From Leptolyngbyaceae cyanobacterium T60_A2020_046 (lineage in GTDB: Bacteria > Cyanobacteriota > Cyanobacteriia > Phormidesmidales > Phormidesmidaceae): DNA of 36,634 nt. The notes beneath the pieces are model-generated. The model did no database searches. It had not been told where the DNA came from and saw only the letters and a list, made by a program, of their open reading frames with translations. Position numbers and translations under genes: made by a program. The stretch is from NCBI GenBank assembly GCA_015272155.1, contig JACYME010000052.1:1-36634 (forward strand), written 5' to 3'. Shown here piece by piece: positions 26,225 through 31,423 of the stretch. Numbering within the stretch: position 1 is the first letter of the stretch; each line of letters starts with the position of its first letter.

Positions 26225-26281
26225 GCTCAACATCAAATCCGATTCATTTTCATTGCTCCCGCGATCGCGGCCCTCATCCCA

Positions 26282-26478
26282 AACCCTTCTCCCTAGGGAG
26301 CTATCCGTTCGGCAAAAGTCGCTCAAACCCCATTTTGTCCTTGGGGCAGACCCTGGCAACGCTTGCGGGAAAGGGGGTCTGGTGCTGAGATCCTAAACCT
26401 GTACCCGGCAGCGGTAACGCCCCGTACCTCAGGGTTACATCACCTTGTGACAAGTAGGTAGCCCCAAGGAGAAGGGTT
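26282..26478 (+). ncRNA. Candidate structured RNA or repeat element between two gene ends
   Basis: A long self-complementary block occupies most of the space between the aminopeptidase stop and the convergent Cys-motif gene. Outer arms AACCCTTCTCC (26282-26292) and GGAGAAGGGTT (26468-26478) pair perfectly. TCCTTGGGGC (26338-26347) and GCCCCAAGGA (26461-26470) pair over 10 bp. Inside are CAGACCC/GGGTCTG (26347-26353 / 26375-26381), GCAA/TTGC with loop CGC (26356-26366), GGTGCTGAG with CTCAG and CACC (26381-26389 / 26428-26444), GTAC/GTAC, a GCG-GTAA-CGC GNRA-type tetraloop hairpin (26411-26420), and CTTG-TGA-CAAG (26444-26454). The tetraloop favours the plus strand. It does not match any riboswitch or housekeeping RNA I know. 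A mobile repeat with CCCTTCTCC ends is the main alternative. Confidence 0.4.
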
Positions 26479-26527: not shown

Positions 26528-27028
26528 TTATTTGGGATCAGTTTTGGGATCAGTCCAGACGGACTGCCAGTCCGGGCATTTGGGTTCTTCTGGCCCGTAG
26601 GGATACAGAGCGCAAACAAACATCGTGCTGCCATAGACCTGTCCGTGATAGTGACGGCAGCCCATACAGGGGCCGTGATCGTTCATCACGGGCTCGACGG
26701 TGTTGTTGATGGGGCGTGAGACGGCTTCAGCCCAGGCTTCTAAGCCAGTCACGAGGGGTTCGACAACAGGCGTGATAAAGGTGGTGAACTCAGTGATAAT
26801 GCGATCGCTTTCCTGATCGAGGACAGTTTCAAGGGGTTCGATCGCGCGGTTCACCTCTTCAGCCCATGCGTCTAACACTGGCCCCCACTGCTGCTCTAGC
26901 TCATCGGCCACCGCATCTGCGGTTTCCACCGCTGCCGAAACCGTGTGCTCGGCCCAGGCTTCGGTGATGCGCACGGTTGTTTCGAGAAATGCGGTGAGGT
27001 GCTGAGTCCAGTCTTGCGAGTCAGGCAT
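26528..27028 (-). CDS. Helical protein with C-terminal Cys-rich motif, function unknown
   Basis: I do not recognise a named family. The 166-residue product has two parts. Residues 1-115 are amphipathic helical with repeated AWAE segments (ITEAWAEHT, LDAWAEEVNRAIEPLE, GLEAWAEAVSRP). Residues 120-160 form a compact motif CMGCRHYHG...CALYPYG...CPDW with four Cys, plausibly a metal or cluster site; the same CxxC-YHG-CALHPxG-CPDW pattern recurs in small cyanobacterial proteins. The ATG at 27028 is used because the longer frame to 27160 runs into the neighbouring gene. It begins 28 bp after the phasin-like gene stop, so the two are probably cotranscribed. Confidence 0.7.
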   Translation of the reverse strand: MPDSQDWTQHLTAFLETTVRITEAWAEHTVSAAVETADAVADELEQQWGPVLDAWAEEVNRAIEPLETVLDQESDRIITEFTTFITPVVEPLVTGLEAWAEAVSRPINNTVEPVMNDHGPCMGCRHYHGQVYGSTMFVCALYPYGPEEPKCPDWQSVWTDPKTDPK

Positions 27029-27056
27029 GGGAAAACGGCGCGTAAGTTCTGCGAGA

Positions 27057-27422
27057 TTAGGCTTGGCGCTTGAGCGAATCAAGCTGCTGACGGAGTTCTT
27101 CGACTTGTTTGCGGAGGGCTTCGGCTTCTTGGGCTTCGGTAGAAGTGGTATCGTCATCATCCAAGATTTCGATGCGCCGAGGCTCGGGGGTGGCAGGATC
27201 AGTTGTGGCGGGAGCCTGTTGTTGGGCCTGCTGCATCATTGAATTAAGCAATTGCTGGGCTTCTTCTGCGGTGAGTTCGCCCCGTTCAACGAGTTCGTTG
27301 ACGATCTTTTGCCCCTGCTCGCGCACTTCTTTGAGGGTGCTGCCGGCTTTTTCGCCCGCATAGGAAGCGAGCCCAACGCCGAGGTAAAACGCTTTTTGAA
27401 CAATATCGCCTAGCCCTGCCAT
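27057..27422 (-). CDS. Phasin-like small coiled-coil protein
   Basis: The 121-residue product starts MAGLGDIVQKAFYLGVGLASY and continues as amphipathic helix (EKAGSTLKEVREQGQKIVNELVERGELTAEEAQQLLNSMMQQ). After a Pro/Thr linker it ends in an acidic segment (ILDDDD) and a coiled coil (EAEALRKQVEELRQQLDSLKRQ). Such proteins are annotated as phasin-family in cyanobacteria, where phasins coat polyhydroxyalkanoate granules, but no PHA genes lie nearby, so the function is open. It heads a two-gene unit with the Cys-motif gene and is divergent from aroA. Confidence 0.75.
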   Translation of the reverse strand: MAGLGDIVQKAFYLGVGLASYAGEKAGSTLKEVREQGQKIVNELVERGELTAEEAQQLLNSMMQQAQQQAPATTDPATPEPRRIEILDDDDTTSTEAQEAEALRKQVEELRQQLDSLKRQA

Positions 27423-31107: not shown

Positions 31108-31423
31108 TCTCAACTTCGGCGGGGATGGTGCAATTCAACCTCTCAACTCTCCCGAGAATCACAGCTTTCAGGACGCCGAGGGGCGTGATGGATACTGGGA
31201 TGGGCGAGAACCTCGGTACAGAAACCCGGTTTCTCTGGGGTAATTTGCCTAGCCTCGTGAAGTAGCCCTTAAAGAAACCGGGTTTCTCGTCAGACGGTAT
31301 GGGTGGACTAGATCGGGATGCCCGCGACATGCTACGGAAAATACGGAATCCTGGTGAGTGGCTAAAGCCCCTTGAGTTCCTTGGGAACACTGGATGCAAC
31401 CGCCTGACAGGCTTGTGCATCCT
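31108..31423. other. Intergenic space with dispersed repeats
   Basis: Some 315 bp lie between the EAL protein gene and the hypothetical gene at 31424. It carries the paired AGAAACC(C/G)GGTTTCT elements at 31220-31287. No other gene-like content is seen; short frames on the minus strand look like chance. Confidence 0.5.
31220..31287. repeat. Inverted pair of AGAAACCCGGTTTCT elements
   Basis: AGAAACCCGGTTTCT (31220-31234) and its exact reverse complement AGAAACCGGGTTTCT (31273-31287) form an inverted pair over a 38-bp loop; each is itself nearly palindromic. The second copy shares TAAAGAAACCGGG with the element inside the ChlH-family gene. Confidence 0.8.

Follow-up and report, generated by a model that had tools for sequence, protein, structure and literature searches.

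The densely paired stretch at 26282-26478, in the spacer between a gene for an M1 aminopeptidase with HEAT repeats and the convergent gene 26528-27160, raises the question of whether this strain of Leptolyngbyaceae carries a new RNA or a piece of mobile DNA. All positions are those of the window, i.e., the whole 36,634-nt stretch of DNA that was analyzed. The initial annotation had considered both options: an RNA whose outer and closing stems could exchange, and a palindromic repeat that is mobile and has CCCTTCTCC ends.

The Pairings and Their Surroundings

The pairings described initially were confirmed. The 11-bp outer arms AACCCTTCTCC (26282-26292) and GGAGAAGGGTT (26468-26478) are perfectly complementary, as are the two strands of the closing stem, TCCTTGGGGC (26338-26347) and GCCCCAAGGA (26461-26470), and the outer arms and the closing stem overlap by three bases. 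The claim that such a density of pairs exceeds chance was borne out only in part: the pairings are real, but perfect inverted repeats of at least 11 bp within 200 nt occur at about 10 other places in the window. Counted as k-mers, such inverted repeats total 20 in the window vs 2.5 in Markov shuffles, so inverted repeats are a common feature of this DNA. The 221-nt fold reached -81.5 kcal/mol on the plus strand and -87.6 kcal/mol on the minus strand, with z-scores against shuffles of only -1.81 and -1.69, respectively. Given z-scores near -1.8 and the abundance of inverted repeats, the density alone requires no RNA. The proposed GTAA tetraloop is present as GCG-GTAA-CGC near 26411-26420, but the loop is not conserved and is replaced by AAAA in the sister copy described below. 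Elsewhere in the window, a stretch of about 70 bp (31220-31287) holds a perfect inverted repeat, the arms of which measure about 15 bp.

The convergent gene 26528-27160 (minus strand) encodes a 210-aa protein with the C-terminal Cys motif CMGCRHYHG...CALYP...C, and its 3′ end contains a 12-bp perfect tandem duplication (TTTGGGATCAGT twice, 26531-26554), which gives the product its C-terminal TDPKTDPK. The protein matched no Pfam or NCBIfam family, and no relative was detectable in the aminopeptidase flanks (up to 3.5 kb) of 80 other cyanobacterial genomes.

A Dispersed Palindromic Repeat Cut in Two

The 30-mer CCCTCATCCCAAACCCTTCTCCCTAGGGAG has at least 15 further copies, partial or full, elsewhere in the genome, and many in related genomes. 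Searched with a 4-base centre (a 3-base centre returned few copies), the uninterrupted palindrome CCCTTCTCCNNNNGGAGAAGGG was found 51 times in the 4.2-Mb genome at no more than three mismatches, with 12 perfect copies, against two matches for the reversed pattern that served as a control. One locus (L003) carries an intact repeat with similar flanks, CCCTCATCCCAAACCCTTCTCCCCAGGGAGAAGGGCTTAAAAGGC. Natural copies of the repeat have both centre types, CTAG and CCAA, and CCCCAAGGAG itself is also found as a natural centre. Since the arms correspond to halves of a repeat that has 51 intact copies and stands uninterrupted in L003, the outer stem represents one palindrome cut in two; judged by their sequence, the outer 11-bp arms are the two halves of the dispersed cyanobacterial palindromic repeat CCCTTCTCCNNNNGGAGAAGGG.

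This result divides the initial proposal of a mobile palindromic repeat. CCCTTCTCC is indeed an arm of a multicopy dispersed repeat, but it belongs to the target and is not the end of a mobile unit; the true unit comprises the 161 bp between the arms and has ends of its own (Table 1). Small dispersed repeats in cyanobacterial genomes were treated by Elhai et al. (2008), as cited in PMC3116915 and PMC3733652. As far as these citing texts describe them, they resemble the target in being short, dispersed and cyanobacterial, a likeness of description and not of repeat family.

Table 1. Features recognized in and around the densely paired stretch (window coordinates).
Feature	Position	Strand	Basis
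Left half of dispersed cyanobacterial palindromic repeat (CCCTCATCCCAAACCCTTCTCCCTAGGGAG)	26271..26300	+	Further copies in the genome and in relatives
Left target-site direct repeat CCCTAGGGAG	26291..26300	.	8/10 identical to right copy
Probable non-autonomous IS50-type element (MITE), 161 bp	26301..26461	+	Terminal inverted repeats also found in related genomes, on insertion sequences and MITEs; full-length sister copy
Left terminal inverted repeat CTATCCGTTCGGCAAAAGTCGCTCAAA	26301..26327	+	IS50 consensus 7/7; similarity to insertion-sequence ends
Right terminal inverted repeat, reverse complement CTACCTACTTGTCACAAGGTG	26441..26461	-	IS50 consensus 6/7; aligned to left end
Right target-site direct repeat CCCCAAGGAG	26462..26471	.	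8/10 match to left copy; natural repeat centre
Right half of split palindromic repeat (CCCCAAGGAGAAGGGTT)	26462..26478	+	Deleting the element plus one direct repeat leaves AACCCTTCTCCCTAGGGAGAAGGGTT; intact form in L003

The 161-bp Element and Its Relatives

The ends of the element, CTATCC...GG(A/T)AG, are common to IS50-type insertion sequences. For the IS50 subgroup of the IS4 family, the literature gives the end consensus CW------Y---CA-A--W-, an element size of 1350-1550 bp, and direct repeats that measure 8-9 bp (PMC2266710, Table 1). The left end CTATCCGTTCGGCAAAAGTC agrees with this consensus at all seven conserved positions, whereas the diverged right end CTACCTACTTGTCACAAGGT retains six; 0.03% of window positions fit the full consensus. 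Over 17-27 bp, the left end is 81-90% identical to insertion-sequence ends at three loci of related genomes (L092, L093, and L103). The element is small and has no capacity to encode a transposase, and its overlapping ORFs of 63-64 codons enter from outside. Phage and plasmid collections gave no match to the feature.

When the inner 165 bp were used as a query, related ends (GCTATCCNTTNNGCAAAAGTCGCTC) were found in several genera of the family, and 37 of 63 genomes gave matches in an end-pattern search, frequently with two ends facing each other. Some of these pairs lie about 1.5 kb apart (L092:357-1855, L093:322-1822, and L103:556-2067), and the window element shares its ends with transposase-encoding IS50-type elements. 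The L092 and L093 elements have one long ORF each, the products of which scored 418-422 bits against the IS4 family transposase model NF033590 (cut-off 160) and contain the Pfam Tn5 dimerisation and DNA-binding domains; the L093 transposase matched Tn5 transposase structures with an E-value of about 4e-37. The size of the autonomous elements, 1395-1512 bp, fits the published range for the subgroup. Shorter end pairs, 136-480 bp apart, are MITEs, because they are too short for a transposase gene. The ISL3 family had been suggested as the parent by an apparent 8-bp duplication, and two ISL3 transposases were found in the search; this candidate was dropped, as the paired ends 1.5 kb apart flank IS50-type transposases.

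Many MITEs of this family, in the genome itself as well as in its relatives, hold an inner palindromic repeat (AACCTCACCGCC...CCTCTCCTTNNNAAGGAGAGG...GGTGAGGTT), for example L046:1503-1802, L047:1502-1767, L060:1503-1778, L094:331-640, L096:396-662, L099:343-686, and L104:318-767. MITEs therefore contain palindromic repeats and vice versa, so the nesting runs in both directions. A second family of small elements was observed at similar nested places (L104:421-585; L053:1645; L110:848, minus strand; L122:732). Some of its ends closely resemble the Tn5 mosaic end (CTGCCGCTTATACACATCT, 17/19), and the L104 copy measures 165 bp, has the ends CTACTAAGTACACACA, and is flanked on both sides by CCTTCCCAAGG.

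Target Duplication and the Restored Palindrome

The 10-bp direct repeats CCCTAGGGAG and CCCCAAGGAG are identical at 8 of 10 positions. With a spacing of 161 bp, 0.1% of window positions reach this level of agreement. Among mismatched left/right flank pairs of the family, 8/10 or better was reached by 5.7%, a background that arises because the targets resemble one another, and among true elements by 40%. Flank identity over 35 elements was 0.50 for 9 bp and 0.61 for 10 bp, vs 0.36 and 0.41 in mismatched pairs, and neither 8 nor 11 bp gave an excess in these elements. Members with direct repeats of 9/9 or 10/10 are numerous. The family-wide peak at 9-10 bp lies in the range of about 8-10 bp used to define membership, the window copy being an imperfect case.

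Once the element and one direct repeat are removed, the remaining sequence reads AACCCTTCTCCCTAGGGAGAAGGGTT, which belongs to the repeat family and is perfectly palindromic (11/11 symmetric pairs). In a palindromy test that allows a shifted centre, the restored targets of 11 of 21 elements had at least 8/11 symmetric pairs, vs rates of 1.4% among shuffles and 1.9% at random places.

At several palindrome-centre insertions (L103:546-2077, L112, and L105), the direct repeat on one side has inverted or otherwise altered central bases (CTCCTTGGAG / CTCCAAGGAG), which gives the impression of a flipped target centre; the direct repeats in the window likewise differ in the centre only. ISRm22, also of the IS4 family, inserts at the axis of palindromy of REP sequences, where imperfect direct repeats, present at some copies, have been put down to recombination, and palindromic targets with GC ends have been noted for Tn5 (PMC1525189).

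Copies in the Genome and Conservation at the Locus

A full-length sister copy lies between C-rich and G-rich arms elsewhere in the same genome (G000:C87:12932-13097), with an alignment score of 103.7 vs 46.2 for shuffled sequences (SD = 6.1). The score of a left-half relative at C240 was 94.7 vs 40.5 ± 6.4. Altogether, the relatives in the genome consist of this one full-length sister, one or two partial copies, and several other places with related ends; none is near-identical. A search of 61 other genomes of the family for a full-length relative found none. Our search for an intact IS50-type transposase in the 250 contigs of the genome returned degenerate fragments only (L132, at G000:C72:8730-9365, L133, and L134), with 32-44% identity and internal stops in two of them; they are the sole traces of a possible partner in the genome. 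As the search turned up nothing but degenerate pieces of transposase, the window copy probably represents an old fossil. An orthologous empty site was looked for and not found: the 80 aminopeptidase loci examined in other cyanobacteria lack both the neighbour gene and the element.

Alternative Explanations

That the stretch is a structured non-coding RNA (a small RNA or one of riboswitch type) with exchanging outer and closing stems now appears very improbable. Many helices could form, and one promoter-like match is present on the minus strand (26359-26332); however, the Rfam search gave no match, either at the gathering threshold or at E-values up to 10, and the modest z-scores given above point the same way. 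The minimum-energy fold of the element has 45 pairs; the sister copy can form only 21 of them, and a single one of these shows a two-sided, compensatory change. The consensus fold of the two copies reaches -12.6 kcal/mol, compared to about -50 and -45 kcal/mol for each alone, so no structure common to both emerges. The stretch therefore shows neither membership in a known RNA family nor stems maintained by compensatory change, and the element is absent from the 80 other aminopeptidase loci and was not found at full length in the 61 other family genomes. The idea of exchanging stems is likewise unsupported: the closing stem pairs the interior of the element with target-site DNA, spanning the last base of the element and the right target repeat, and therefore cannot belong to a mobile RNA unit.

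The arms might also be two separate halves of palindromic repeats that arose independently around unrelated intergenic DNA, with no single insertion. The two differences between the 10-bp repeats and the occurrence of both CTAG and CCAA centres among natural copies would fit such an origin, but we regard it as scarcely credible, because the halves join exactly at ends of the IS50 consensus, in the 10-bp register of other family members, and restore a perfect palindrome, and because the sister copy of the interior has the same end-points. Imperfect direct repeats are, moreover, known from the ISRm22 insertions in REP sequences (PMC1525189). An unlikely proposal, although one compatible with a MITE, is that the element is under selection as a bidirectional terminator or an mRNA stabiliser for the convergent genes. 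It draws on the position between these genes and on the observation that transcribed MITEs with tight folds can influence expression (PMC3049150); against it, no terminator-like site lies inside the element, and the element is not conserved at the locus.

Preferred Explanation

Taken together, the similarity of the ends, the direct repeats of the family, the restored palindrome, the sister copy, and the transposase-bearing relatives lead us to conclude, with high confidence, that the densely paired stretch represents a decayed IS50-type (IS4 family) MITE within a dispersed palindromic repeat rather than a new RNA. As such, it belongs to an already known kind of mobile-DNA debris. Against the MITE stand the mismatches at 2 of 10 positions of the direct repeats, the diverged right end, the failure to find an intact transposase in this assembly of 250 contigs or an orthologous empty site, and the predominance here of direct repeats of 9-10 bp vs the published 8-9 bp for the IS50 subgroup (PMC2266710).

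The 161-bp element would have landed at the centre of a pre-existing copy of the repeat in the spacer between the aminopeptidase gene and 26528-27160, and the insertion would have duplicated 10 bp of the target, the uninterrupted form of which would have been AACCCTTCTCCNNNNGGAGAAGGGTT. The many helices could then be explained by the superposition of the split-repeat arms, the inverted ends of the element, and ordinary GC-rich folding. By analogy with the Tn5 mechanism, movement was presumably by cut-and-paste in trans, and the copy would now be an immobile fossil.

Known Systems and Implications

With the IS50 subgroup, represented by the Tn5/IS50 transposase (PMC2266710), the elements described here share the end consensus, parents of 1.4-1.5 kb, a Tn5-like transposase, and direct repeats roughly one helical turn long; they differ in the missing transposase gene of the window element and in the length of most direct repeats. 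Nezha is a cyanobacterial MITE with proposed mobilisation by ISNpu3-like elements (PMC3049150), and it is likened here by this description, as a short element that lacks autonomy and for which a partner insertion sequence has been proposed, and not by sequence. ISRm22 and other REP-targeting insertion sequences resemble our elements in their IS4-family affiliation, in the use of the symmetry axis of a dispersed palindrome, and in some imperfect direct repeats (PMC1525189). ISRm22 differs in belonging to the IS4Sa subgroup (PMC2266710), in the host phylum and palindrome family, and in its 6-bp direct repeats (PMC1525189).

A plausible, though tentative, generalization is that IS50-type insertion sequences and MITEs in this cyanobacterial family may preferentially target the symmetry axes of dispersed palindromic repeats; these would serve as landing sites and are also found inside MITEs. 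Palindrome targeting at a genome scale has been reported for ISRm22 (IS4Sa); as far as we found, there is no such report for IS50-type elements beyond the palindromic tendency of Tn5.

Our analysis removes one candidate RNA from consideration and offers an annotation for the "dense inverted repeat" that recurs in cyanobacterial spacers, namely a MITE nested in a palindromic repeat. If true, the preference of IS50-type elements for palindrome centres would extend the REP targeting of ISRm22 to another IS4 subgroup and another phylum.
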